The notes below the pieces were generated by a model. That model saw only the letters and a list, made by a program, of their open reading frames with translations, made no database searches and was not told the origin of the DNA. Below, in pieces: positions 4,035 through 34,172 of a stretch of 36,456 nucleotides of DNA (its first letter is position 1; every line of letters starts with the position of its first letter). The position numbers were made by a program, and so were the translations under genes. This stretch comes from a virus, in the IMG/VR virus record IMGVR_UViG_3300022707_000552, positions 1-36,456 of that record. One strand, given 5' to 3'.

Positions 4035-4279
4035 TCGTCTGTCTCTTTATCGTCCATCAGTTGACCCCATTTTGCGTTCTTGTAAAGCCGTCGAAGCGCT
4101 CCCATGGGTGTGCTAGCAAGACCCTCATAAACATCATCGTGACCCTCGATATGCTTCGCTGTTGCACGCCACTGGTAGGGATACGGTGGCACTATATCTC
4201 CTGCGGTACTGAAGGCTTCGAGGCGATCGAACTCTGCACCAATTTCTTTCAGTTTATTCAAATAGTATTTGTAATTCAT
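4031..4279 (-). CDS. Hypothetical protein, 82 aa
   Basis: Overlaps the HTH gene's start by four bases and the upstream gene's stop by four bases, so it belongs to one coupled cluster. It begins MNYKYYLNKLKEIGAEFDRL (a helix) and ends with an acidic tail (MDDKETDE). It contains RATAKHIEGHDDVYEGLAS, TPMGALRRLYKNA. No family recognised. Confidence 0.7.
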   Translation of the reverse strand: MNYKYYLNKLKEIGAEFDRLEAFSTAGDIVPPYPYQWRATAKHIEGHDDVYEGLASTPMGALRRLYKNAKWGQLMDDKETDE

Positions 4280-4488
4280 TTCTTTTTCTCAGTTTCCAGT
4301 CCGAGCCCCAAATCCAATCCCGCAGCCTCAATCAATTTCTTTCCGGCTACGGCGCTTACATGAAAATCGTGCCCAAACTCCCTGACTACGGCCGCGCGGT
4401 ATTCGTGCGGCACGTCTTCCTTTGAATCAAGAATCGTCCACCCGTTCCCAGGATGGTAGTACACGATGTATGTGACTCGGACTCTCAT
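4276..4488 (-). CDS. Hypothetical protein, 70 aa
   Basis: A small alpha/beta-looking protein: VRVTYIVYYHPGNGWTILDS, then EYRAAVVREFGHDF, ending with a Lys/Glu tail. It starts three bases after the stop of the 4492-4650 gene and overlaps the next gene by four bases. No family recognised. Operon context is the only clue. Confidence 0.7.
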   Translation of the reverse strand: MRVRVTYIVYYHPGNGWTILDSKEDVPHEYRAAVVREFGHDFHVSAVAGKKLIEAAGLDLGLGLETEKKK

Positions 4489-4491
4489 GCG

Positions 4492-4650
4492 CTAATCAAA
4501 AACTATCTTCGTTCGATTCTTCTTGTGCGCTTGCGCCCTATGCGTTTCAAATGCCCTTAGCATCAGCAGTAGAACCTGTTTCGCAAATTTCTTCTGAGAG
4601 TCACTACCGTGGCGCATTTCAATCTTGATATTGATTGTTTCGGTTTCCAT
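4492..4650 (-). CDS. Small hypothetical protein, 52 aa
   Basis: The ATG at 4650 opens a 52-residue frame starting METETINIKIEMRHG and ending with a basic stretch (RAQAHKKNRTKIVFD). It fills the gap between its neighbours almost exactly (6 nt and 3 nt to each). Middle helix KKFAKQVLLLMLRAF. Probably a real micro-gene; function unknown. Confidence 0.65.
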   Translation of the reverse strand: METETINIKIEMRHGSDSQKKFAKQVLLLMLRAFETHRAQAHKKNRTKIVFD

Positions 4651-4656
4651 GCCCAA

Positions 4657-5046
4657 TCAACCGAGTATATCCTTCAGAATTGCAAGGTGATCGTGTCCAC
4701 TGTGATCGTTTTGACTGTGATCGCTTTCTTTGAATGTAATCACCCAAGTCTTTTCATCCAATTTCAGTTGCTCCGCCATTGCTCCATTCAAATCTACCTC
4801 CGCGTGTTCTGAGCGAAATCGCGCCCATGCTAAATTTTGCATCGCCCTTCCGTATTCCTGCAACAGAGTCAATTTCTTCTTCTCCTTACCAGTAAGTTCA
4901 TCCAACAAGGGCGTGATATCGTTTTCAGGTCGCTTCAACCATTCGTGGCTCTCTCCTAGAATCTTCGCAATTTTCTCATCTAAAACCTGCCGCTCCTTCC
5001 ACATTTCTACGAACCACTTTGGTGCTTTTACTTGATTGTCCTGCAT
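4657..5046 (-). CDS. Helical hypothetical protein with His-rich C-terminus, 129 aa
   Basis: Mostly charged helices (EMWKERQVLDEKIAKILGE, LTGKEKKKLTLLQEYGRAM). The C-terminal part has DHSQNDHSGHDHLAILKDIL, where four His and Asp could bind metal, though that is only suggested by composition. It is the first gene behind the 5071-5098 promoter and starts a cluster that runs to the HTH and transglycosylase genes. Confidence 0.75.
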   Translation of the reverse strand: MQDNQVKAPKWFVEMWKERQVLDEKIAKILGESHEWLKRPENDITPLLDELTGKEKKKLTLLQEYGRAMQNLAWARFRSEHAEVDLNGAMAEQLKLDEKTWVITFKESDHSQNDHSGHDHLAILKDILG

Positions 5047-5070
5047 AGTATTATTGTTTAATTTACAACA

Positions 5071-5098
5071 ACACTATCAGATATGTGCGGTATGTCAA
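5071..5098 (-). promoter_or_regulatory. Sigma70-type promoter for the 5046-2794 gene cluster
   Basis: TTGACA at 5093-5098, a 16-bp spacer and TAGTGT at 5071-5076, with TG just before the -10 (TGATAGTGT). The spacing and perfect -35 copy those of the 2754-2781 promoter. It lies in a 130-bp non-coding gap after a hairpin, about 25 nt before the 5046 start codon. Confidence 0.6.
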
Positions 5099-10719: not shown

Positions 10720-11535
10720 TTAATTATTTAGACCAAATACCAAGCAAGCTGTGGGATTAGCTATTCCAGAAGTCGGGTCGAGAGTTGCTGGCAAAGTTCC
10801 TGCGGTAACTATTTGCGTAAATGACGGCATTTCTCCACCAGACGGGAAAAGGTTTCCATTTACAATCTGTGCTTGATGGAATAGCAGAATGTCGCCCGAA
10901 CCACCATTGATTACGATTCCAATGTAATACATCCCTGCTGGCACGTTTTTTTCTGCACCGAGAACCGTAGTGAAGTTCGCATTTGGTGTTGCCAAACTTG
11001 GCGTAGTAACCTCGAATAATTTAGTTGCTCCATCAAGAGAATATAGGGCTATGTCTGCCGTTGTCGGTACCGTAACAGCAAACTGCGTTCTTATCGTTAT
11101 CGAGTTTACATCAATGTCATAGGGTATCGACACCAGACCAAAGAACGCCAACGTATTATCATTGTGCGATTTAGACGATTGAGCAGAAACGCCACCGTCT
11201 ACGATCGGCTGTATACGAGTAGTGATTGCGCCCCCTGCTGCGTTGATCGCGTCTTCAAGCTCAACAAAGTGTCCGGCGGTGATGAGCATTTCAACGGCAA
11301 TCCCGTCTGCGTGATCTGCGTCTGCCGATCCTTCCTGTCCCCGAACAATAACTGTGAAGTCATCGTCAACGCGCGTCGTCACTAGGATGATTTCTGAACC
11401 AATCGTCACCAAGAAGTTTCCGGTCGGAAATAATGCGCCTTGCCCTGCACCAACTGAAAGAGCCGTCGCCCCTTGCGCGAGACTGCCATCCAGTACCCCT
11501 TCAACTTCGTTTGATTTTTCTAGGAAGACTGCCAT
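10720..11535 (-). CDS. Tail-tip structural protein, 271 aa
   Basis: N-terminal 90 residues (LDGSLAQGATALSVGAGQG, then FTVIVRGQEGSADADHADG) match a domain frequent in phage virion proteins. The rest is beta-rich and could be a carbohydrate-binding or jelly-roll domain (AGMYYIGIVINGGSGDILLF). It lies directly after the tape measure, the usual place of distal tail proteins. Own -10 box six bases before the ATG (11542-11547). Confidence 0.65.
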   Translation of the reverse strand: MAVFLEKSNEVEGVLDGSLAQGATALSVGAGQGALFPTGNFLVTIGSEIILVTTRVDDDFTVIVRGQEGSADADHADGIAVEMLITAGHFVELEDAINAAGGAITTRIQPIVDGGVSAQSSKSHNDNTLAFFGLVSIPYDIDVNSITIRTQFAVTVPTTADIALYSLDGATKLFEVTTPSLATPNANFTTVLGAEKNVPAGMYYIGIVINGGSGDILLFHQAQIVNGNLFPSGGEMPSFTQIVTAGTLPATLDPTSGIANPTACLVFGLNN

Positions 11536-20527: not shown

Positions 20528-21661
20528 CTACCGCGTGTGTGCGTCCAAGAGCCTCGACTGCGAGCCCAAAGCTACCTGACAGCAAGTCCTTTCGCTCGCG
20601 CGTGGGTTCACATTTGTAAACGGTGCAAATGAGAGCGTGTCATCCACCTTCCAGCCCTTCGTCAAGAAGCGACTGTTCACAACCGCAACGCGGTCATTCG
20701 GGAAGTCGATGTCAACCACTGCGGGGATTCGTCCAAGTCCATCTGCAATATAGGCATCCAAGACGTGTCCACCTTCACGGACTGCGCGGTCAACCTGAAC
20801 CTGATCTGCGCCTGTGAAGTCATTAAAGATACGCTTGTTCGCAATACTCATCACAATCGCGTTTACTCCACCACCTGCCTCGCGAACGTCGTCAAGCAAG
20901 TCCTGAAGCACTAATTCAGTGTACGCACCGCCTACTGCCGTTTCCAGAACACCTGGGGTGTCCTGAAGGTGAGACAGAAGACCTCGCGTCAGTGAAGGGA
21001 TCGAAGCAGTACCAACTCGTGCCGTGCCAAAGATCGCCGACAGTGCAAGGTCGCGCATAACACGCTCCAAGCCCTCTGCTTTCAAATCAACCTCTGTGCG
21101 TCCGGTCTTTCGTGCCTGTTCACTGTCAGCTTTCGATAGGTCAACGATCTCCTCAACAAGCTGCAAGAAGTTTGTGAGTGTCGCCGTGTCCTCTGCCATC
21201 GCTCGCCCGTCAGCCGTTCCCTCGATGTGAGCGTTACCGATGATCTGTCCATTTCCTGTAACTCCGTGGGTCGCACCAACCGTGTCACCAGCACCTCGCT
21301 CGTACACGTCAACGTCAGTCGTACCATTCGTCGCAGAAACAACCACAATCTCATCGTCTACCAAGAGGATGTCACCAAGAGAGATATTCGAGATATCTGT
21401 AATGGCAAGCGCGGTCGTGTCTGAAGCACTGTCCCATCCGTCGCCAGCACCAGCAGTGTAGGCGAATACAGGTGCAGTATAGGCACGCGTGAGGATCTCA
21501 AACTCCTCTGTCTCGAACGGTGCAGCACGCAATGTGAACAAGTCCCAAACTGCGCCAAACTCAGAAGCCATTAAAGGTGTAATGCGCTCCGCGATCGCAA
21601 TAACCTCGGGGTCGAGGATACTGTCTGGATCGGTAAGCGTTGTGTGTTGTCCTAAATCCAT
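20528..21661 (-). CDS. Major capsid protein (HK97-like), frame broken near its C-terminus
   Basis: Starts with ITPLMASEFGAVWDLFTL, has the E-loop-like and inserted middle region (GDILLVDDEIVVVSATN), and helices LTNFLQLVEEIVDLSKADSE and LERVMRDLALSAIFG. The later FNDFTGADQVQVDRAVREGG and VAVVNSRFLTKGWKVDDTL match HK97-like major capsid proteins ('F....V......V.....FG.I.VV.DR'). After PRASE the zero frame becomes Cys-rich and stops at 20528, while the -1 frame reads KDLLSGSFGLAVEALGRTH and ends at 20508. The latter is the likely true end (about 384 residues), implying a missing A at 20590-20592. Confidence 0.87.
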   Translation of the reverse strand: MDLGQHTTLTDPDSILDPEVIAIAERITPLMASEFGAVWDLFTLRAAPFETEEFEILTRAYTAPVFAYTAGAGDGWDSASDTTALAITDISNISLGDILLVDDEIVVVSATNGTTDVDVYERGAGDTVGATHGVTGNGQIIGNAHIEGTADGRAMAEDTATLTNFLQLVEEIVDLSKADSEQARKTGRTEVDLKAEGLERVMRDLALSAIFGTARVGTASIPSLTRGLLSHLQDTPGVLETAVGGAYTELVLQDLLDDVREAGGGVNAIVMSIANKRIFNDFTGADQVQVDRAVREGGHVLDAYIADGLGRIPAVVDIDFPNDRVAVVNSRFLTKGWKVDDTLSFAPFTNVNPRASERTCCQVALGSQSRLLDAHTR

Positions 21662-21686: not shown

Positions 21687-21893
21687 TTAGTCCGACTTAT
21701 TCTGTCTGGCTTGCCGGAGAGCCTTCAGCTTTTTCGCTTTCTCGTACATAAGCGCATTCTCGGTATGTGTTCTCTCGCCACCTTTCTTCATCAATTCGTC
21801 CACCTCTTTAGCCAGTCGTTCTTCTTCGCCAAGGTCGCCATCGCCGTTCTGAATTATCGAACCGTCGATTGCAACACTCTTAGCGCCCAACAC
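21687..21893 (-). CDS. C-terminal part of the scaffold-like protein, shifted frame
   Basis: Opens with a GTG inside the end of the upstream gene (VLGAKSVAIDGSIIQNGDGD). It continues as a charged coiled coil (LGEEERLAKEVDELMKKGGE) and a basic end. Read as a continuation of the upstream gene with one fewer A at 21904-21906, the join becomes YITKNAKVLGAKSV, which is coherent. Alternatively it is a separate small coiled-coil gene started from GTG. Confidence 0.6.
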   Translation of the reverse strand: MLGAKSVAIDGSIIQNGDGDLGEEERLAKEVDELMKKGGERTHTENALMYEKAKKLKALRQARQNKSD

Positions 21894-22419
21894 CTTCGCA
21901 TTCTTTCGTGATGTATTCCAACTGCTGCCTCGGGCTGTAGTCTTCAGGAATCATCCCTCGATTCTCTTCTGGAATCGTTTTGAGAGTTTCTTCAAGAATC
22001 CTCTTAGTGGAATCCACGTACTTGCCAAGCTGATCGCCCTGCTTTTCGTGTTTATCCTCTAAATCCTTCAGCTTCGTTGCGCGGGTTTCAGCGAGTTCCT
22101 GCCATTCGCCTTGTTTGGCGGCATCGTCCTCTGCTGCTTTCTCTGCCGCGATCCGATCGTCTTCGATCTTCTTGTCGGCTGTCGCTTTCTCCTCCAACAT
22201 CTTGGCGACTTTGGGGTTCACTTTCGCAAGAGCTTCCAGTTCTGCGTCTGCCGCATTCACCTTTGGCTTCTTGTCATCGTCTTTCGGTTTTGGCTTGTCT
22301 TCCTTTCCGTGTTTCTCCGGATCGTAAACAATCTTTTCCTCCCCGTCTAACTTGATCTCCCCTTTGTCATCTGCAAGGTACTCGACGCTATCGACTGTAA
22401 CTGTTTTAGGTTTCGGCAT
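21880..22419 (-). CDS. Scaffold-like coiled-coil protein (capsid assembly), N-terminal part
   Basis: I chose ATG 22419 (MPKPKTVTVDSVEYLADDKG); a TTG 51 bases upstream is less likely. Long charged helical body: DDKKPKVNAADAELEALAKV, EEKATADKKIEDDRIAAEKA, TRATKLKDLEDKHEKQGDQL, typical of phage scaffolding proteins next to the capsid gene. It ends EYITKECEGVGR, probably an artefact of the frame break at 21904-21906; with the downstream frame it would be about 243 residues. Cytoplasmic, acting in prohead assembly. Confidence 0.75.
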   Translation of the reverse strand: MPKPKTVTVDSVEYLADDKGEIKLDGEEKIVYDPEKHGKEDKPKPKDDDKKPKVNAADAELEALAKVNPKVAKMLEEKATADKKIEDDRIAAEKAAEDDAAKQGEWQELAETRATKLKDLEDKHEKQGDQLGKYVDSTKRILEETLKTIPEENRGMIPEDYSPRQQLEYITKECEGVGR

Positions 22420-22498
22420 GGTGAAATTGATTAGTGGCGTGATAGCCGTTTTGCGCGAGTGTTGCGACAATGCGCGGGACTCGCTGCCCGTTATTTAC

Positions 22499-22527
22499 AT
22501 TATAGTATGACCCTGAAATTTGTACAA
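22499..22527 (-). promoter_or_regulatory. Promoter for the scaffold-capsid genes
   Basis: TATAAT (22499-22504), 17-bp spacer, TTGTAC (22522-22527). It lies between the tRNA gene and the scaffold gene, about 80 nt before the chosen ATG. The -35 matches only TTG; the -10 is perfect. Confidence 0.5.
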
Positions 22528-22558
22528 TCGGTCAATTATCCACAGGATCATCTAGCTG

Positions 22559-22593
22559 TGTGAGTGGGCGCATAGACCTATGACACACTCACA
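22559..22593 (-). other. Inverted repeat downstream of tRNA-Ile
   Basis: TGTGAGTG and CACTCACA are perfect 8-bp arms, with an inner ATAG/CTAT pairing. It starts 14 bp past the tRNA 3' end. It could end the RNA-island transcript or mark a processing site; there is no T run. Confidence 0.45.
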
Positions 22594-22606
22594 GAGATAG
22601 ACGATG

Positions 22607-22679
22607 TTGGACGGGAAGGACTCGAACCTTCAACCTTCCGCGCATCAGGCGGATGCTCTGCCAAATGAGCTACCGTCCA
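22607..22679 (-). tRNA. tRNA-Ile, anticodon GAT
   Basis: A 73-nt cloverleaf without encoded CCA. Acceptor TGGACGG/CCGTCCA, D stem GCTC/GAGC, anticodon stem TCCGC/GCGGA with loop CTGATGC (anticodon GAT), variable AGGTT, T stem GAAGG/CCTTC with loop TTCGAGT, discriminator A. All stems are perfect. GAT reads AUC and AUU. The U1-A72 pair is unusual for tRNA-Ile. It stands between the tmRNA and the scaffold gene. Confidence 0.95.
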
Positions 22680-22762: not shown

Positions 22763-22876
22763 TTATCGTACCCCATTAAGAACCCTAGCCCAAACACAGT
22801 TCACGCACACTCCCCTACGCTTGTACGGGTGGGAGTTGATATGTGCCATTAACAGCCAATTCTCGAAGTCGCTCAT
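22763..22876 (-). CDS. Micro-protein with CxxC, 37 aa
   Basis: Begins 20 bp after the tmRNA 3' end, six bases behind a TGGTAGAAT box. It reads MSDFENWLLMAHINSHPYKR and continues RGVCVNCVWARVLNGVR. The CxxC could bind metal. The same box-to-start spacing as in three other genes supports it. No homologue is recognised; it may be spurious. Confidence 0.45.
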   Translation of the reverse strand: MSDFENWLLMAHINSHPYKRRGVCVNCVWARVLNGVR

Positions 22877-22888: not shown

Positions 22889-22895
22889 CCATGTG

Positions 22896-23289
22896 TGGAC
22901 TTGGCGGGAATCGAACCCGCGTGTAACTACTTCACTCACATAGAGTCTACGCTACATATCCGATGTGACCGGAACTATTGCATGGGGTCGGGCGCTCCTG
23001 ATTTGTGTAACGGTTTGAGCACAAGAGCGTGTTCATGTACCAGCGCATATGAGGTACGTGAACGGGTGGTTCTCCACCAACGTATCTAATTTACCCATCC
23101 AGCCCGATACGCGAGGCTGGCGAGTGGCGTGTTTAGGCGAGTACCAGTTCAGGGGTTTTTACACCCTCGACTGCCTCGTCACACGCGATCAGAAATGCAT
23201 TTGCATTTACAGTTGCCCCTCTTAGCGACGTGGGGCGTGTCGGTAGCGCACTATGAAAGATCGGGAGCTATCGAACCCTGGTCAAGCCC
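22896..23289 (-). ncRNA. ssrA: tmRNA (transfer-messenger RNA), phage-encoded
   Basis: The tRNA-like ends pair perfectly: 5' GGGCTTG (23283-23289) with 3' CAAGTCC (22897-22903), discriminator A, no encoded CCA. The 5' end continues ACCAGGGTTCGATAGC, the conserved tmRNA start; the 3' end has T stem-loop GCGGG-TTCGATT-CCCGC. Helix P2 is visible as CATAG..CGCTAC (23255-23243) against GTAGCG..CTATG (22955-22939). A tag frame of 23 codons lies at 23136-23204. About 394 nt, one piece. It rescues stalled ribosomes with SmpB and tags products for proteolysis. The gene starts 11 bp after the MuF gene's stop and is probably processed from that transcript. Confidence 0.93.
23133..23204 (-). other. tmRNA tag reading frame
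   Basis: From a GCA resume codon the frame reads ANAFLIACDEAVEG, then VKTPELVLA and TAA: 23 residues ending LVLA. The 'GTAAAT-GCA-AAT' context before the resume codon fits tmRNA tags. It is longer than the common 8-15 residues, contains a Cys, and ends Leu-Ala rather than Ala-Ala. The resume codon is inferred from the sequence only; an upstream in-frame GCA cannot be excluded. Confidence 0.75.
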
Positions 23290-23300
23290 ATAAGCCAATT

Positions 23301-24161
23301 CTATTCCAAATCAGGTCGAGGTTCAAGGATGTGCTTGCAGTTCGGATGATAGGTCGGCTCATTGCCGGCGAGCGGCGGGAAGTTCTTGCTGTTGCCACTT
23401 ATGCTGTAAATCTTCCCCTCCTGTGGCTCGCAGAGGTTGTCTGTTGCGCCGTGCGCCGATACCTGAACAATGTCTATGTCAAATTCGTTCATCCGGTTAA
23501 TCACTCCTTCATTGGCTGCTTTTATGATTTGTGTGCGCGTAACCATCTGCGAGTAATTGGCGAGGCTCCATTGCCGCCCCCCTCGGTCAATCAGAACCGT
23601 AAAGCCCCGATCAGCAAACAACGCTTCAACAGTCTTGGCTATCGTGCGAATGTCGCTTCCTTCGAGCCGTCCCAACGCTATCGCGACTCTTATCTGCCGC
23701 CGGAGCCCTTCGTCGATGATCCTCTCTGCCCCCTGTATGAATCCCCGCATCGTGAAAGCGAAATCATTGTATGCCTCCGACAGTAACGTATTCACTGCGG
23801 CAAGGTGCGGCGAAAACTCAGGTGTTGAAAGAACTTGAATCGTGACTTGCCCGAACTCCGATCCGTCTGGCCCCTTGAAGCCGAATGTCGCAAGCTCTCT
23901 ATCTGCAAAGCCGATTCCCTCCACATACCCCGTACTTATGCCCCGAACAAGCCATGCCCGTATCTCTGTATCTGCGTCGATGATATGCGTGTCCAGGTCT
24001 GCGAGTATCGCCGTCTTCTCTGCTGTTGATAGTTGACCGCGAAGCGCCTGAATCAATAACTCCCGTCCCGCATCATCCAAGTCCGTAACAATACTCAGAA
24101 ACTCATCGAGCCCTGCTTCATCAAAGATACTTTCTGTGAATCGTAGTGCGTGTTCAGACAT
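23301..24161 (-). CDS. MuF / SPP1 gp7-like head morphogenesis protein, 286 aa
   Basis: Minor head protein found next to portals. The C-terminal signature is clear: RTQIIKAANEGVINRMNEFD, VQVSAHGATDNLCEPQEGK, then FPPLAGNEPTYHPNCKHIL, matching the 'C..C..L.GK.......PP.HP.CRC' MuF pattern. The N-terminal 150 residues are helical (AGRELLIQALRGQLSTAEK). It may be packaged and injected or bind the portal. Start chosen at 24161 in a TGATATG junction. Confidence 0.88.
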   Translation of the reverse strand: MSEHALRFTESIFDEAGLDEFLSIVTDLDDAGRELLIQALRGQLSTAEKTAILADLDTHIIDADTEIRAWLVRGISTGYVEGIGFADRELATFGFKGPDGSEFGQVTIQVLSTPEFSPHLAAVNTLLSEAYNDFAFTMRGFIQGAERIIDEGLRRQIRVAIALGRLEGSDIRTIAKTVEALFADRGFTVLIDRGGRQWSLANYSQMVTRTQIIKAANEGVINRMNEFDIDIVQVSAHGATDNLCEPQEGKIYSISGNSKNFPPLAGNEPTYHPNCKHILEPRPDLE

Positions 24162-24364: not shown

Positions 24365-25792
24365 TTAAGTCAGTGCTGGTGGCACTACGGGTAGTTGTGG
24401 CGGGTTGGTGATATCTATTCCGGCAACTCGTTCCTCGCTGGCGATCTGTACCATTTCTGCCTCCGCTTCCTGCTCGTCGATACCTTCCAGTCGCATAATA
24501 GATGATCGCTTGGATGAAAGACCTGATCGCACCTTCTCTGCCTCCGCGTCAACGCGCTCCGCCTCATCAACAGGCATAACATCTGTGAACATTACTTCCA
24601 ATTCGCCATCGTGCTCGATACCCGCCATCTTAAATCCAATGCGGAAGATATCATTCAGCCCTTCAACTATACGCGCTCGTTTTGTTGATGCCTTCCGTGT
24701 CGCTCCGAACAACGAAATACGAAGGCTCTCGACTCGCTCCGGTCGATCAGATTTGACAAGTGCAAACATCGGCACTGCCGTCCCGACCGTAATCAACTGA
24801 AGCTGAAGCATGATGTGTTCTCTCGTATCTTCCAGTAGCGCATTGTTATTGGTGAGGTAGTGCGGGTCAACGCCATCGCTATTCTTCAACCCAATCGTAT
24901 CGAAATTCCTTACATTCCCGTCCTCATCGAACATTTCTGCTGGCAGTACCAATTTCGCGTCAAGGTTCTTCAGGAGTTGCGTTGAAACGTGTGTCATGCG
25001 CTCGTTGACCTCCGCAAGCTGCGGGAAGACATCGGCGTAGTCGGACTTCCCGAATCCCCAACTGCTTTTCTTCGTGTTGTCGATCTGTATGATATTCAAC
25101 TCCCCAAGTCCCTTGATCGTTTCCATTTCAACAAGAGGCTGCGTCCTACCTAGAATCTCCGCCATCTTTTCGAGCGATATGGAGTCTTGGATAACGCCCG
25201 TTCCGTCCGTCTTCCATGCGGTTCGCGCGATAATCACATTTTCCTGAGTCTCTATGTCGAGATAATACCAAACGATGAGCACGAACAATTCATTGCTCTC
25301 CGGCGCATCGGGGTCATGCGCGAATGTGGCGACGATAACCGAACCATCAGGCTGCGGGAAATACTGATCTTGTGGGATTCGCTGGATATTGAAATTAGAT
25401 GCCTCGTCGATCCATGCTGTGAGCGGTACGAATCCAAACTCTGACTGCTCCGTTGCCATGTCAACAACCATTTCCACGATGTCATTGAATACCACAGCAT
25501 CCTCAACAAATTTCTTCGCTTCGTCGCTTGCATCCTTCGATGCCTGAATAACGATCCTGTCCAGATCACCAACGACAAAATCCCCGTAGAAGTCCGACAC
25601 CCTCGCCGGAATGGGGTTCGCCAAATACACTAGGTCGCTCTCGTTCTTGTATTGCCGTTTGATGAAGTTGTGCAGCCCGAAAACTGAAAACTGCCGTCCT
25701 TCGTATAGAGAGGCGTATTTTTTTAGCGTGCTGATTCGTTCAATCTCCACTGCTGTAGGGAAGTCACCTGGGCTTGGTACAAAATGTGGCAT
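24365..25792 (-). CDS. Portal protein (SPP1 gp6 / phage_portal type), 475 aa
   Basis: Forms the dodecameric channel for DNA. Recognisable points: ISTLKKYASLYEGRQFSVFG near the start, VYLANPIPARVSDFYGDFVV, then the long TEQSEFGFVPLTAWID strands, SYADVFPQLAEVNERMTHVS-like stem, and the C-terminal helix VKSDRPERVESLRISLFGAT. The acidic, helical C-terminus (VDEAERVDAEAEKVRSGLSS) is typical of gp6-like portals. Follows terminase and precedes MuF. Confidence 0.9.
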   Translation of the reverse strand: MPHFVPSPGDFPTAVEIERISTLKKYASLYEGRQFSVFGLHNFIKRQYKNESDLVYLANPIPARVSDFYGDFVVGDLDRIVIQASKDASDEAKKFVEDAVVFNDIVEMVVDMATEQSEFGFVPLTAWIDEASNFNIQRIPQDQYFPQPDGSVIVATFAHDPDAPESNELFVLIVWYYLDIETQENVIIARTAWKTDGTGVIQDSISLEKMAEILGRTQPLVEMETIKGLGELNIIQIDNTKKSSWGFGKSDYADVFPQLAEVNERMTHVSTQLLKNLDAKLVLPAEMFDEDGNVRNFDTIGLKNSDGVDPHYLTNNNALLEDTREHIMLQLQLITVGTAVPMFALVKSDRPERVESLRISLFGATRKASTKRARIVEGLNDIFRIGFKMAGIEHDGELEVMFTDVMPVDEAERVDAEAEKVRSGLSSKRSSIMRLEGIDEQEAEAEMVQIASEERVAGIDITNPPQLPVVPPALT

Positions 25793-26355: not shown

Positions 26356-27843
26356 CTACATCGCATCTGCCTTCACTCCTGCGATTGCCCCCGCGCCCTT
26401 CTCGGCGAGTTTCAGAATTAAGTACACAAGCGCATCAACATCGTCATCGTGTTCCTCTATTCCGAAATTCACGAGTCTTTCAATCAAGTCCTCACACCCC
26501 GTTTCTGGAAACATAACCGTCCCATCAATGATGAACGGTGAGGCTGACTGAAGCCGAGCGCGTTTGTCTCTTATCGGGCGCACCCCGATAGTCGGTAATC
26601 CCTCCCTGGACATAATCTGGATCGCTGCCTTCTGATACGCAACATCCTCGACATAGAATACGTGGCCTTCTGGCATCTTTCTGTTAATCATCTTCGCCTT
26701 CGTGATCGTTTTGTGAATGTCCATGCGCTCCACAATCGGATCGGGCAGTATAAAGATGCGAATCCGTTTACTTCCATCTTGCTCGAATGCCCAATTAACT
26801 TTGTATCCTGACACCATCGCCGTGAAGTCGGCTGTCTGTTTCTCGCTGATCGCCAAGTCCACTCCGGTAGCTGCATCCAAGACCGTGAACTCCCGTTCGC
26901 CTTTGTTGCCGTAATTCGTGAGCAATCCGTTCGGGTACGTGCTGATGTCGCTCTCTTTAATTATTTGGTCTTCCTCGGCAATGATCTTCAGCAAATACTC
27001 TCGACTCCACGCCGTCGCGCTTCCGACCTTATCCTTTTCTGCCTGAATCGCCGCTTCGTCGGGATACATGCCCTTCCAGGTGCAGTTGCCATCCTCATCA
27101 ATCAGGGGGATGCGTCGCGTCCTAAACAATGGCGATCCGTCCTTCTTCTTTTTCTTTTCGAGCCGTGCCGCGAGTGCATCCTTATGCAACAGGTTGATGA
27201 CGACAACGATGCGGCTTCCGTGCTTCTCCTGCGCCGGAACTACTTCGCCGTCGAACCATGTGGATGTAGCGTCGCGATTCTCTTTCTTCTTCACCCATTT
27301 AATATCTTCGGGGTCATCAACGATCACCAGTTGCGGTCGGAATTGTCTGTGTCGCAACCCTCGAACTTTCTGCCCCCGCGAGCGTCCCATAATCAAAACC
27401 TTGTTGAGAAGCACAAGCTGTCCCTGTGACCAATTCTGAGACTTTTCAAACATCGTCCCGAAGTCTTTCCGGATCAGTTCATTCTCCTCCAACTCGTATC
27501 TGATGTTTCGTATGTTGATCGCCGTCTGCGTGTCCGTATCTCCAACAATGATGATGAACTGGTGAATGTTCCTCAGCGCGCAGTAGAGCGCATATGCGGT
27601 CGTCACGATCGTGCTTTTCGCGCTTCCTCTAAATCCAATGTATTGCAGGGCTGCTTCGTCACCATCCAGGTCATCAAACATGTCGTAGTGAAAATCTGCT
27701 GGTTCAAGCTGGAAGTAATGCGGGAGGTACAGTAGGCAGAAACCAAGAAACCCACCCTCGTCGAGAATGGATTGCCTCACCATTGGATCGTCTATGTTGA
27801 GCTTCTTGAAAGCCTCTATGTCGAAGCGTCGCGCATTACTCAT
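26356..27843 (-). CDS. Terminase large subunit, 495 aa
   Basis: ATPase-nuclease motor packaging DNA. Walker A FRGSAKST (about residues 71-78), Walker B LVIVDDPED (172-180), followed by the coupling region FDGEVVPAQEKHGSRIVVVI. The RNase H-like nuclease starts LDAATGVDLAISEKQTADF and has FYVEDVAYQKAAIQ; a late DDDVDALVYL acidic motif is probably part of the active site. I chose ATG 27843, which overlaps the upstream stop (ATGA); an upstream TTG is rejected. Confidence 0.95.
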   Translation of the reverse strand: MSNARRFDIEAFKKLNIDDPMVRQSILDEGGFLGFCLLYLPHYFQLEPADFHYDMFDDLDGDEAALQYIGFRGSAKSTIVTTAYALYCALRNIHQFIIIVGDTDTQTAINIRNIRYELEENELIRKDFGTMFEKSQNWSQGQLVLLNKVLIMGRSRGQKVRGLRHRQFRPQLVIVDDPEDIKWVKKKENRDATSTWFDGEVVPAQEKHGSRIVVVINLLHKDALAARLEKKKKKDGSPLFRTRRIPLIDEDGNCTWKGMYPDEAAIQAEKDKVGSATAWSREYLLKIIAEEDQIIKESDISTYPNGLLTNYGNKGEREFTVLDAATGVDLAISEKQTADFTAMVSGYKVNWAFEQDGSKRIRIFILPDPIVERMDIHKTITKAKMINRKMPEGHVFYVEDVAYQKAAIQIMSREGLPTIGVRPIRDKRARLQSASPFIIDGTVMFPETGCEDLIERLVNFGIEEHDDDVDALVYLILKLAEKGAGAIAGVKADAM

Positions 27844-27974
27844 GTGCCTGTCTCTATTGGTTCTCGACAAGGGCAGTCCCAATTACAGAACGGCAACGGT
27901 GCAGGTGTGTTGTTCAGAAATGGCTGGCAAGCATCGCATCCCCCCGTACTCTGGCAATTCGCTGGACACCTCAT
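27840..27974 (-). CDS. Cys-rich micro-protein, 44 aa
   Basis: Overlaps both neighbours as ATGA. Reads MRCPANCQSTGGCDACQPFL and later FCNWDCPCREP: seven Cys, including CDAC and CPC. It could bind one or two zinc ions. The double ATGA overlap strongly supports translation. It sits directly before the large terminase. No family recognised. Confidence 0.65.
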   Translation of the reverse strand: MRCPANCQSTGGCDACQPFLNNTPAPLPFCNWDCPCREPIETGT

Positions 27975-29799: not shown

Positions 29800-30524
29800 G
29801 CGTCTATGGTATTGAATACGATTTCTCGAAGGTTGCGGTGCAGTCTCTTAGAAACAGAGTTTATCTCTATTCTTCCATGAGCATCTATGGCGCTCTTAAC
29901 TGCTCCTCTTACCATTTTATTGAAATCAACTTTTTCCAAAGCCTCCTTAATGCGTTGGCGTTCTGCTATCGTGACGTTCGCGCAATCGTCCTCGCACTTC
30001 TCCATCTGGAAACCCTCTCTCTCCTCCACTATGGCTAGGTACGCATCAACGAAGGTACGATCACTGTCTTTTTCCTTTTCCGATAATGCCGAATAAGGCA
30101 GATCAATTTGCTTGCGCCATCGTTTGATATTCTCATCAGTGAGATTGTCCAGCATGTACCATGTCCAATGCGCCCACTGTTCGTGGATTATTGCTGCAAG
30201 TCTCTCCTTCAATGATGTTGGGGCGAGGTGGCTGACTTGTGTGCATGAGTCGGGATGGCACTTGTGGTTTGCGATGTTCTGCTTTGTGCATATCGGCATT
30301 GCTGGACCATCAACCAATCGGTGACAATCAGGGCATGTATGCACAACAACATTCCCAACGACTGCCGTAGTCCTGTCCTCGTCTGTATGTCCACACCCTT
30401 TTTTTGTTTCTTGTTTGCTCATGTCCAATTTATTATTGCATTTGCAGCACGTTTCCATTCCAGGGCTCCCGCATATTTCGGGCGTGGGGCAGGGACACAA
30501 CTTCTTTTTTTCTTCTTTGCTCAT
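29796..30524 (-). CDS. Cys-rich N-terminus fused to an RyR-domain-like region, 242 aa
   Basis: Residues 1-95 carry about 14 Cys in CxC/CxxC groups (CPCPTPEICGSPGMETCCKC, VVHTCPDCHRLVDG). Residues 105-165 (LKERLAAIIHEQWAHWTWYM, ENIKRWRKQIDLPYSALSEK, DRTFVDAYLAIVE) match a pattern common in phage proteins and resembling the RyR domain. A helical C-terminus follows. Two ancestral genes may be fused, since an internal ATG precedes a second Cys cluster. Role unknown. Confidence 0.7.
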   Translation of the reverse strand: MSKEEKKKLCPCPTPEICGSPGMETCCKCNNKLDMSKQETKKGCGHTDEDRTTAVVGNVVVHTCPDCHRLVDGPAMPICTKQNIANHKCHPDSCTQVSHLAPTSLKERLAAIIHEQWAHWTWYMLDNLTDENIKRWRKQIDLPYSALSEKEKDSDRTFVDAYLAIVEEREGFQMEKCEDDCANVTIAERQRIKEALEKVDFNKMVRGAVKSAIDAHGRIEINSVSKRLHRNLREIVFNTIDA

Positions 30525-31834
30525 AAGTGTAGTTTATTCTCTACCCTGACTGATGCAATCCTTCGCTTCGCTATCTCAACATATTCAGCCTCTCTTTCAA
30601 TACCAATATAGTCAAAACCTAACCCTTTAGCCGCCATTGCTGTTGTGCCGGAACCCAAAAATGGATCGAGAACAGTGCCATCTGGAGGAGTCGCCAACTT
30701 GATGAGGTATTCCATGAGAGCTATGGGCTTTACTGTTGGGTGGTTGTTTTTCATTACATTGTTACGCTCATTGCCCGACCCTGTTTTGAGCGATTTATCT
30801 GCCGTTCCAGCCATACCACCGCCTATCTTGTCGGGCATCCCCTCGCTCTGTTCAAACAAATCAAATCTACCATCCAACCCCTCATTCCTCTCTTTCTTAC
30901 TGGCTTTGGCGCAATAGAAGAATCGGGAAGCACCGCCTTTGTCGTTGAAAGAATTACCGATAACGCCCTTCATCTTTCCATGCGTCTTTTCATTCCCACC
31001 AAACGTATGCCTCTTATGGTGTGGTTCTAAGTCGCCACTCTTTAATTCGCCACTCTGCTCATCCAGCATCCTCCCTGCTTCTTCGTCTAGTATGAGGTTG
31101 GCGGGGAAGCGGCCTATGTTTGGGTCAAGCTCTTTCTCTGCACCGCCTCCATACTCGCCATAAGCATTCTTGGTTTTATTCTTAGAGAGCGAGGCTGGTA
31201 CTTCTCTTGTAGTCCCCACCCTACTAGCATCTATATTCAATCCTCCTGTACCCCATTTAAGTACGTTGGCGGCTACTGTACCCTCACTGAGTGGCTTTCT
31301 CGCCACCACAATAGGCTCATGTGCTGGTTTAAGGGCAGTGCCCCACCCATCCCAACCTTCTAGCTTCTTACCTATGTTCAATGACTTTGGGAACCCTGAA
31401 CCATAAAGCCACATGATCTGATCTCTTATTTCAAAACCAGCGTCTTCGATGCCTGCTGCCATGCGGTGATATGTGCGCGCACCACCGAAGCAGAGTAAAT
31501 GTCCTCCAGGCTTCAATACTCTGAATACCTCCTTCGCCCACGCCTCAGTCCATTCTTGAAATTTCTGATTAGCCGACAGCGTTCTGTCATATCGACCCGC
31601 CTCAAATCCAGCAGAGGCCGTATCGCGAGAATCTGGATTATCGCTTTCTGCCTTTCGACTACTCTTTGTAACCCCTTCCTTCACGGCCGTGGGCTTAAAG
31701 TTGTCCCACTCCTTACCCATAAATCCAATACCGTAGGGCGGGTCGGTAATACAAACATCAATGCTGTTATCCTTAAAGGTTTTCATCACCTCTACGCAGT
31801 CACCTTGTATTATCTTTTGTTCACTTTTGCTCAT
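30521..31834 (-). CDS. DNA methyltransferase with DPPY motif (N4-C or N6-A type), 437 aa
   Basis: Amino-methyltransferase with catalytic motif IV first (ITDPPYGIGFMGKEWDNF), a target-recognition middle, then the AdoMet-binding motif I near the end (GTVLDPFLGSGTTAMAAKG) and PTVKPIALMEYLIKL: the beta-class circular order. The exact base (N4-cytosine or N6-adenine) is not told by the motif. Start M6 (31834) chosen for the ATGA overlap. It would modify phage DNA against restriction or for regulation; no restriction enzyme partner is seen. Confidence 0.9.
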   Translation of the reverse strand: MSKSEQKIIQGDCVEVMKTFKDNSIDVCITDPPYGIGFMGKEWDNFKPTAVKEGVTKSSRKAESDNPDSRDTASAGFEAGRYDRTLSANQKFQEWTEAWAKEVFRVLKPGGHLLCFGGARTYHRMAAGIEDAGFEIRDQIMWLYGSGFPKSLNIGKKLEGWDGWGTALKPAHEPIVVARKPLSEGTVAANVLKWGTGGLNIDASRVGTTREVPASLSKNKTKNAYGEYGGGAEKELDPNIGRFPANLILDEEAGRMLDEQSGELKSGDLEPHHKRHTFGGNEKTHGKMKGVIGNSFNDKGGASRFFYCAKASKKERNEGLDGRFDLFEQSEGMPDKIGGGMAGTADKSLKTGSGNERNNVMKNNHPTVKPIALMEYLIKLATPPDGTVLDPFLGSGTTAMAAKGLGFDYIGIEREAEYVEIAKRRIASVRVENKLHL

Positions 31835-32262
31835 TCGGCCTCCCACCATTTAGGCTTCACCATTCGTATAGGATGAAACCCCTTATGGAACAGAATGGCT
31901 CCGTAGTCCATGCACACTAGCCTCTTGCCAATAAATCCAAAGTTATCATAGTGCAGGTCGGTGAAGAAATTAGGGATGACCTTCGGATAGGTGTCTCGGC
32001 CTCCTATATAAGCACGCTCTTGTATCAGGTACTTTCCCGCCTGCGACAGATCCCGTACCGGAGCGAACCATTTTGCTATTGCAGCCTCATCTTTGATTTC
32101 CTCCCAAATCTCATGCTCCATGATGTTCTGCGCCCGACCGTGTGCGCTATCGTGAGCGATCTTTATAACAAGATCATGGTTTGGCTTGTATATAAAAACC
32201 TTCCGGTGGATACCTTCACCAAGAAACCGACCGCGAAACATTCGTTCTAGTTCGTCATTCAT
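31831..32262 (-). CDS. Protein-kinase-like fold protein, 143 aa
   Basis: Compact kinase-like features: a Gly-rich loop FLGEGIHRKVFIY, VIKIA with K34, helix Glu in MEHEIWEEI (E51), hinge-like IQERAYIGG, catalytic loop DLHYDNFGFIG (D102, N107) and MDYG (D119) in the DFG position. At 143 residues it is about half a normal kinase; the C-lobe ends early. It may be active with few substrates or a pseudokinase. Neighbours are a methyltransferase and small genes. Confidence 0.75.
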   Translation of the reverse strand: MNDELERMFRGRFLGEGIHRKVFIYKPNHDLVIKIAHDSAHGRAQNIMEHEIWEEIKDEAAIAKWFAPVRDLSQAGKYLIQERAYIGGRDTYPKVIPNFFTDLHYDNFGFIGKRLVCMDYGAILFHKGFHPIRMVKPKWWEAE

Positions 32263-32791: not shown

Positions 32792-33054
32792 TTTTTGGGT
32801 GGATACATCTTACAGAAAGCATCTGTGAAGCGTTTGAGCGTCATGGACTTCATTTCTGCTGCGTGGAGCATCAGGATGAGCTCGTTGTTCCTCTGCTCAA
32901 TGGCCTCTCTCTTTACGTTCCGAATAATCCCTTCGATAAACAACCGGACTGTCATAGGTGTCGTGAGCCACGATGCGCTGCCCTTCGATTGTCCTTGATG
33001 AAATGCCTTGAACTGTTCGGGCCACCAAGTGTGGACGGATTTTTCTTCACTCAT
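32788..33054 (-). CDS. Hypothetical protein, 88 aa
   Basis: Helical: VHTWWPEQFKAFHQGQSKG, TVRLFIEGIIRNVKREAIEQ, NELILMLHAAEMKSMTLKRF. Four-base overlaps at both ends put it firmly in the operon. It is directly downstream of the C5 methyltransferase. No family recognised. Confidence 0.7.
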   Translation of the reverse strand: MSEEKSVHTWWPEQFKAFHQGQSKGSASWLTTPMTVRLFIEGIIRNVKREAIEQRNNELILMLHAAEMKSMTLKRFTDAFCKMYPPKK

Positions 33055-34172
33055 TCGATTTCTTTAATTGCTGACATAATTTGATATGCGACCTGCGGCA
33101 CTATGGCGTTGCCAAGCCCTTTGAGGCGTTCCATTCGATGTCTTGGTTTGGTAAGTTGATATCCGTCCAGCCTGGCGGGTAGCCCATCATCCACTCGACA
33201 AAGTTCGGCTGCAACTTCAGCCCAGTTTGCATCCCAGTCGTAGCTGACAAATTCCCTTTCTTGACCCACTTTTCGCCCTTCGAGTCTTGCCCCCCCGACC
33301 TCGGCGTTGGAAGCATCCCCTTTGCTACGAGCGTCCCTAGTGTCCTCCCGCTTTGGCTCGGTGCTTGCGGATCGTACTCCCTGGCTGCGCCTCTCGCCCC
33401 TTCGTTTGCGTCCGGTGTTGGGAGCATCCCCACCTGAGCCGACAAAGCCGTTCCGCCTTGTTGATACTTTCCCTTTCTTCCCGTGTCGCTCGATACTGGC
33501 GTCGTAAGCATCCCCACTTGGCTTGCTAGGTTCGGCTGTTTCTTTGTTCTGCTTCCGTTCCAATCCCAACCCTCCGACGGATTCGTTCGTGGTGTTTGCA
33601 GCATCGCCACTCTCGCTGATAGGTGTGGGGTTCCGTTTCTGTCCCTTGCGTTCGGGCCTCCGTGTTCCGCTTCGCTTGCTTGTATTGTGGGCAACAATCC
33701 AAATTCTATCCCTTCTGTGTGGGGCATTGATTGCACTAGCTGGAACCATAACCGATGCAGTTTCGTACCCCGCATTTTCCAAGTCAGATAGCACTTCGTC
33801 GAATACCATGCCGTCGTTCCAAGTAGTGAAGCCAGAAACATTCTCCCCCACAACCCATGTTGGTTGAACCTCTTTGATAATTCTAAGCATCTCCGGCCAG
33901 AGGTGGCGGTCATCTTCCGTGCCTTCTCGCTTCCCTGCTGCACTGAAAGGTTGGCAGGGGAATCCTCCGGTGATAAGGTCTGCTGAACTTCGTTTTCCTT
34001 TGTAGGTTTTGATGTCGCCATGAATAGGTACGTTAGGGAATCGTAATTTTAACAATGCTTGGCAGTATGAGTCATTATCTACAAATCCTACGGTTTCATA
34101 ATCGTCACCCCAAACCCAACCTGCCGCGAGCGTGAAACCACCAATTCCACTGAATAAATCAAGGTGTTTCAC
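33051..34172 (-). CDS. C5-cytosine DNA methyltransferase, 373 aa
   Basis: Starts with GTG. Motif I DLFSGIGGFTLAAGW, motif IV GGFPCQPFSAAG (catalytic Cys73), motif VI GENVSG (E110-V112), motif VIII APHRRDRIWIVA, and motifs IX-X RLKGLGNAIVPQVA near the C-terminus. A polar, Arg/Lys/Ser/Gly-rich 170-residue stretch replaces the usual target-recognition domain; it overlaps the second frame at 33101-34021 and its odd composition may reflect that constraint. It would make 5-methylcytosine in phage DNA. Confidence 0.9.
   Translation of the reverse strand: MKHLDLFSGIGGFTLAAGWVWGDDYETVGFVDNDSYCQALLKLRFPNVPIHGDIKTYKGKRSSADLITGGFPCQPFSAAGKREGTEDDRHLWPEMLRIIKEVQPTWVVGENVSGFTTWNDGMVFDEVLSDLENAGYETASVMVPASAINAPHRRDRIWIVAHNTSKRSGTRRPERKGQKRNPTPISESGDAANTTNESVGGLGLERKQNKETAEPSKPSGDAYDASIERHGKKGKVSTRRNGFVGSGGDAPNTGRKRRGERRSQGVRSASTEPKREDTRDARSKGDASNAEVGGARLEGRKVGQEREFVSYDWDANWAEVAAELCRVDDGLPARLDGYQLTKPRHRMERLKGLGNAIVPQVAYQIMSAIKEIE
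33101..34021 (-). CDS. Overprinted second frame in the methyltransferase gene, 306 aa
   Basis: An ATG at 34021 opens a 306-codon frame inside the methyltransferase. It shows regular structure: repeated 'ML.TP' units (GLLPTIQASEAEHGG, MLQTPRTNPSEGW, MLTTPVSSDTGRKG, MLPTPDANEGARG, MLPTPRSGGQDSKG) spaced every 30-45 residues, and a final LKLQPNFVEWMMGYPPGW. I associate this 'LPTP...FVEWLMG.P.GW' style with proteins annotated beside phage cytosine methyltransferases. It may be real protein, an accessory target domain, or a by-product of the other frame. Confidence 0.5.
   Translation of the reverse strand: MATSKPTKENEVQQTLSPEDSPANLSVQQGSEKARKMTATSGRRCLELSKRFNQHGLWGRMFLASLLGTTAWYSTKCYLTWKMRGTKLHRLWFQLVQSMPHTEGIEFGLLPTIQASEAEHGGPNARDRNGTPHLSARVAMLQTPRTNPSEGWDWNGSRTKKQPNLASQVGMLTTPVSSDTGRKGKYQQGGTALSAQVGMLPTPDANEGARGAAREYDPQAPSQSGRTLGTLVAKGMLPTPRSGGQDSKGEKWVKKGNLSATTGMQTGLKLQPNFVEWMMGYPPGWTDINLPNQDIEWNASKGLATP

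Follow-up and report, generated by a model that had tools for sequence, protein, structure and literature searches.

A one-piece tmRNA gene between the MuF and capsid genes of a probable Patescibacteria phage

The window, by which we mean the whole stretch of DNA analysed here, spans the 36,456 bases of a viral contig in IMG/VR. Among its genes are those of the terminase, portal, MuF and SU10-type capsid proteins, a scaffold-like ORF, neck and tail genes, an amidase and two DNA methyltransferases. The following packaging and head genes are all read from the minus strand: the large terminase subunit (26356–27882; phrog_38, E 1.5e-70), an SPP1-type portal protein (24365–25792; PF05133), a MuF-type minor head protein (23301–24161; PF06152, E 2e-18; phrog_4611, E 4e-34), the scaffold-like ORF, which was assigned by position (21880–22470), and the SU10-type major capsid protein (20528–21661; PF17236, E 1e-22). 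The two DNA methyltransferases, one of the N6/N4 type and one of the C5 type, lie near the packaging genes on the same strand (30521–31849 and 33051–34172). Between MuF and the scaffold ORF the window has a gap of 830 nt, compared with 50–180 nt in most relatives. Small ORFs other than those of the window occupy this gap in the related loci L003, L319 and L329. In the close relatives L003 (9228–9450) and L319 (after 3890) such an ORF stands where the window has a tmRNA, and that of L003 is rich in Cys and His and looks HNH-like by eye.

Read along the minus strand, the gap of the window holds a tmRNA gene, a 37-codon ORF found by sequence reading (22763–22876), a tRNA-Ile(GAT) gene (22606–22679; ARAGORN, Rfam 69.1 bits), a long hairpin and a TATAAT-type promoter match, after which the scaffold ORF begins. 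The initial annotation had described the tmRNA as wedged between MuF, at 11 bp, and tRNA-Ile. Its distance to MuF holds, with the tmRNA 11 nt downstream of that gene; the tRNA is 215 nt off, and the 37-codon ORF lies between them. This short ORF contains a CxxC motif (CVNC), and an ORF of 31 codons with two CxxC motifs likewise lies 3' of the tmRNA in the related contig L327 (4561–4656). The tRNA-Ile has a U1-A72 end pair, unusual for this isoacceptor family. Among the Ile codons, the phage uses ATC most often (29 per 1000). A related phage, L013, has a tRNA-Ile with anticodon TAT at 10908–10980, shortly after its terminase gene. Directly 3' of the window tRNA, the hairpin (22547–22605) has 20-nt arms that are 85% complementary (−28 kcal/mol, z −3.4).

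As the initial annotation had proposed, ARAGORN and Infernal with Rfam models were run on the locus, and their calls agree. Both report a complete, one-piece tmRNA (ssrA) gene, placed by ARAGORN at 22895–23289 on the minus strand, the strand being a point that the annotation had left unstated. The Rfam match (RF00023, 22893–23289) covers the full model, positions 1–374, at 57.8 bits with an E-value of 2.8e-20 against all of Rfam. This exceeds the gathering score of 47 bits, the curated cut-off, and is low compared with most host copies. The predicted fold energy lies below that of shuffled sequences (z −3.6).

Of the parts named in the initial annotation, both acceptor strands, the T arm, helix P2 and an in-frame tag are present, and the helices could be placed with an alignment of three phage tmRNAs. 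The acceptor stem P1 has seven pairs formed by GGGCUUG (23283–23289) and CAAGUCC (22897–22903), including the G3-U70 pair that alanyl-tRNA synthetase requires. The T arm, GCGGG-UUCGAUU-CCCGC (22904–22920), is also part of the Rfam match. The six pairs of P2, CGCUAC (23243–23248) with GUAGCG (22950–22955), close the mRNA-like domain. Of the pseudoknots, PK1 can be read by sequence from its stems GCCCC/GGGGC and CGAC/GUCG; the posterior of the RF00023 alignment is low in its middle, and PK2–PK4 could not be told apart individually. The tag reading frame (23133–23204, positions 86–157 of the gene) runs from the resume codon GCA at 23204 through 23 codons to TAA, and ARAGORN translates it as ANAFLIACDEAVEGVKTPELVLA. 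Neither the tmRNA gene nor the tRNA-Ile gene encodes its CCA end.

Two sites in the region resemble promoters by their match to the consensus. One, TTGAAC-17-TAGAAT (23298–23326), contains the MuF stop codon in its −10 box and ends 8 nt before the tmRNA. Promoter matches in the region are not in excess (7 found, 8.1 expected), so this candidate is suggested by its position alone. The other, TGTACA-16-TATAAT (22499–22526), precedes the scaffold ORF and with it the capsid genes. At the equivalent position a TATAAT site also occurs in L327 and in a second related contig, L325.

These two contigs, which come from metagenomes other than that of the window and were found by a wider capsid search, each have a tmRNA gene in the interval from MuF to the scaffold ORF. 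In L327 it lies 10 nt after MuF (4145–4523, 66.2 bits; tag AKQSIVSPFYPTKASLDRDFAVV), and in L325 about 1.6 kb after MuF (4703–5071, 61.9 bits; tag ARASMKSPYFATAQDVHAGLVPA). The first relatives, L003–L027, had no tmRNA and suggested a gain unique to the window, a view that L325 and L327 overturned. Two further searches for relatives added loci that lack a tmRNA; of 25 lineages, three have the gene and 22 do not. Searching phage records at the nucleotide level matched the T-arm stretch alone, and a pattern search of viral contigs for the 3' end returned three contigs, none with a tmRNA.

The three phage tmRNAs are at most 58% alike, and each of them forms standard pairs at all 18 paired positions of P1, P2 and the T arm. 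Nine of these pairs have changed on both sides, among them four of the six in P2, and G3-U70 is invariant. None of 500 shuffles reached the observed covariation, and in slid controls it fell to about half. By this comparative evidence the helices are under selection, and such complete covariation at high divergence, together with the intact tag frame, points to selection over the long term. Since the gene lies in the same gap in two distant relatives, selection seems to keep the repair RNA in these phages. The concordant calls, the two relatives and the covarying helices together bear out the initial claim of a complete tmRNA in a phage head operon.

The same evidence bears on whether the gene belongs to the phage at all. 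Because ssrA is a common integration site (PMC11915505), the locus might be an attachment-site remnant of a prophage in a host ssrA gene, or else a chimeric assembly. The gene is complete, however, and sits in the middle of the head operon between the MuF and capsid genes rather than at an end; the arrangement of tmRNA after MuF recurs in two contigs from other metagenomes; and, of the window proteins tested, none was recognised as an integrase. L325 and L327 in the main led us to reject this explanation, to which we attach hardly any credence.

A phage gene could still be a neutral passenger if an intergenic gap that tolerates insertions had taken up a host tmRNA and tRNA at no benefit to the phage. 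Such a history would fit the other small ORFs held by this gap in L003 and L319 and the presence of a tmRNA in only three of the 25 lineages. It is weakened by the complete covariation among such divergent copies and by the intact tag frame, and in a tree of MuF and capsid proteins from the 25 lineages the sisters of every tmRNA carrier lack the gene, so that at least three gains or losses are required. We consider a passenger improbable. In a tree of tmRNAs with 149 rows, L325 groups with L327 (SH-aLRT 94) and the window copy is unplaced. Judged from these trees, the history may comprise three gains, or an old gene that has often been lost.

The host is probably an ultra-small member of the Patescibacteria, as judged from relatives of the terminase. 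Among 84,980 species genomes, nearly all of the 80 genome hits fall in Patescibacteria MAGs, and in the terminase tree the window phage belongs to a starred clade of six that includes one Patescibacteria MAG contig, L061. The exceptions among the matches include two Acidobacteriota MAGs and single MAGs of Pacearchaeota, Nanoarchaeia and Dysgonamonadaceae, which leave the host inferred rather than proven. A capsid search of whole genomes matched only G001 among 380 Patescibacteria and none of 297 Acidobacteriota, and thus adds little on the host. In many of the terminase-bearing Patescibacteria contigs (loci L073–L139) tRNA genes lie no more than 9 kb away, which would fit prophages that integrate at such genes. 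Patescibacteria genomes commonly encode the trans-translation machinery themselves: a tmRNA is found in 249 of 287, so the phage's need for one of its own is not obvious, and SmpB is present in 71 of 78 sampled. The nucleotide identity of the window tmRNA to any sampled host copy does not exceed about 51% over shared columns.

The tag was compared with 121 tags of the host phylum, 117 of them called by ARAGORN and four by hand (loci L141–L290). As a set, most Patescibacteria tags are long and many are basic, and their usual ending is a hydrophobic residue and Ala instead of LAA. They measure 8–32 residues (median 21, usually 15–27), and 101 of the 121 end in [LVFYMA]A, meaning an Ala preceded by another Ala or by a hydrophobic residue; LAA is found in four and VLA in six. 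In an Acidobacteriota panel, 23 of 24 tags have 8–10 residues and end in ALAA or AYAA. With 23 residues and the ending VLA, the window tag is, in this phylum-level comparison, ordinary for Patescibacteria in length and ending and not a phage invention. The initial annotation had suggested that a phage copy could change the tag; because the tag has the length and ending usual in the probable host phylum, this idea is unsupported as such.

A related explanation takes the tmRNA to be functional and sees the gain for the phage in the tag, a different, acidic sequence that would steer proteins to another protease or spare them during infection. The window tag has a net charge of −3, whereas the median of the long host tags is +2; this places it at the edge of the host range, with four of 73 long host tags at −3 or below. 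The resume codon GCA and the tag length of 23 are common to all three phages; the middle parts of the three tags differ, a further point in favour of this reading. Against this stand the ordinary length and ending, and the tags of L325 and L327 carry an SPYF-like motif (SPYF or SPFY) as some host tags do. Among host tags the motif occurs in L143, L147, L149, L152, L155, L275 and L280; by count it is mostly found with MAGs that have related terminases, in five of 14 tags as against two of 107 (Fisher p 2e-4, an optimistic value as the MAGs may be kin). A gain through the tag seems to us unlikely, if a little less so than a passenger.

As to which protease might read these tags, the ClpX zinc domain was found in three of 49 Patescibacteria genomes, a count that a zinc-less ClpX would escape. 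Of the same 49 genomes, about 11 have strong Lon matches, 45 have FtsH and 38 have ClpP. A broader scenario, which we offer tentatively and would not expect to hold in full, is that Patescibacteria phages acquired host tmRNAs on several independent occasions, always in a single RNA cargo gap bounded by MuF and the capsid promoter, as ribosome rescue would limit capsid production in tiny cells, with tags tuned to a protease other than ClpXP.

We know of no agreed role for phage tmRNAs, and the window tmRNA is a molecule of an already known kind. One survey counted tmRNAs in 402 of 18,146 phage genomes, about 2% (PMC9004378), and the tmRNA database lists 79 unique phage sequences (PMC11915505). 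Mycobacteriophages Bxz1 and Wildcat, Bacillus phage G and the Streptomyces BE phages are likewise tailed phages with a one-piece tmRNA. The window copy differs from theirs in sitting between the MuF and capsid genes and in its long tag of the Patescibacteria type, in place of a short tag ending in ALAA (ANSNFALAA in Patelgo). A Streptomyces BE phage, moreover, has a genome of about 130 kb with 39–45 tRNAs, compared with 36 kb and a single tRNA in the window record. Methylophage Melnitz is, similarly, a phage of a streamlined bacterium and belongs to a group of which only part carries a tmRNA; its tmRNA is permuted, in two pieces and accompanied by a glutamine riboswitch (PMC9004378), whereas that of the window is in one piece and no riboswitch was found with the Rfam scan. 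The chromosomal tmRNAs of Patescibacteria resemble it in being one-piece with long hydrophobic tags ending in [LVFYMA]A; the window copy departs from them in sequence, as noted above, and in its acidic tag. Our literature search found no earlier description of a tmRNA in a Patescibacteria phage, nor of one that recurs between one and the same pair of head genes.

Mycobacteriophage DS6A encodes a tmRNA relative whose sole domain is the tRNA-like one; in E. coli, tmRNA is inhibited by a similar molecule (PMC4131195, PMC11915505). By analogy, the window RNA might be a decoy or inhibitor and compete for the SmpB or AlaRS of the host or for stalled ribosomes, the role suggested for DS6A. An inhibitor-only RNA of the DS6A type was rejected, as the window gene has a complete mRNA-like domain and tag frame; unlike DS6A, all three phages have kept this domain with a tag of conserved length, which makes any decoy role very improbable.

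We therefore favour, with a probability of roughly 0.7, a working one-piece tmRNA of a Patescibacteria phage that rescues ribosomes in late infection with the help of host factors; rescue on phage mRNAs would be its likeliest role. The gene may be transcribed with the late head operon or from a promoter of its own inside it. Its position shortly before the capsid promoter points to late and high expression by analogy with mycobacteriophage Wildcat, whose tmRNA is the most expressed lytic gene (PMC7474061). Host enzymes would trim the transcript and add CCA, and host AlaRS would charge it with alanine. No SmpB was recognised among the window proteins tested, so the RNA would rely wholly on host SmpB for delivery to ribosomes stalled on mRNAs that are broken or lack a stop codon. 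On these ribosomes it would add Ala and the host-type hydrophobic tag of 23 residues and free them; the tagged, unfinished proteins would be destroyed and the ribosomes returned to capsid protein synthesis. The gain for the phage would be rescue capacity at the peak of late translation, in a very small cell whose ribosomes are few.

The repeated carriage of the gene between the same two head genes, together with strict covariation, indicates that selection keeps tmRNAs in these phages and ties the gene to late capsid expression. As Patescibacteria tags largely depart from the ALAA rule and few genomes of the phylum have a ClpX zinc domain, it becomes possible to test directly which protease reads the SsrA tags of these bacteria.
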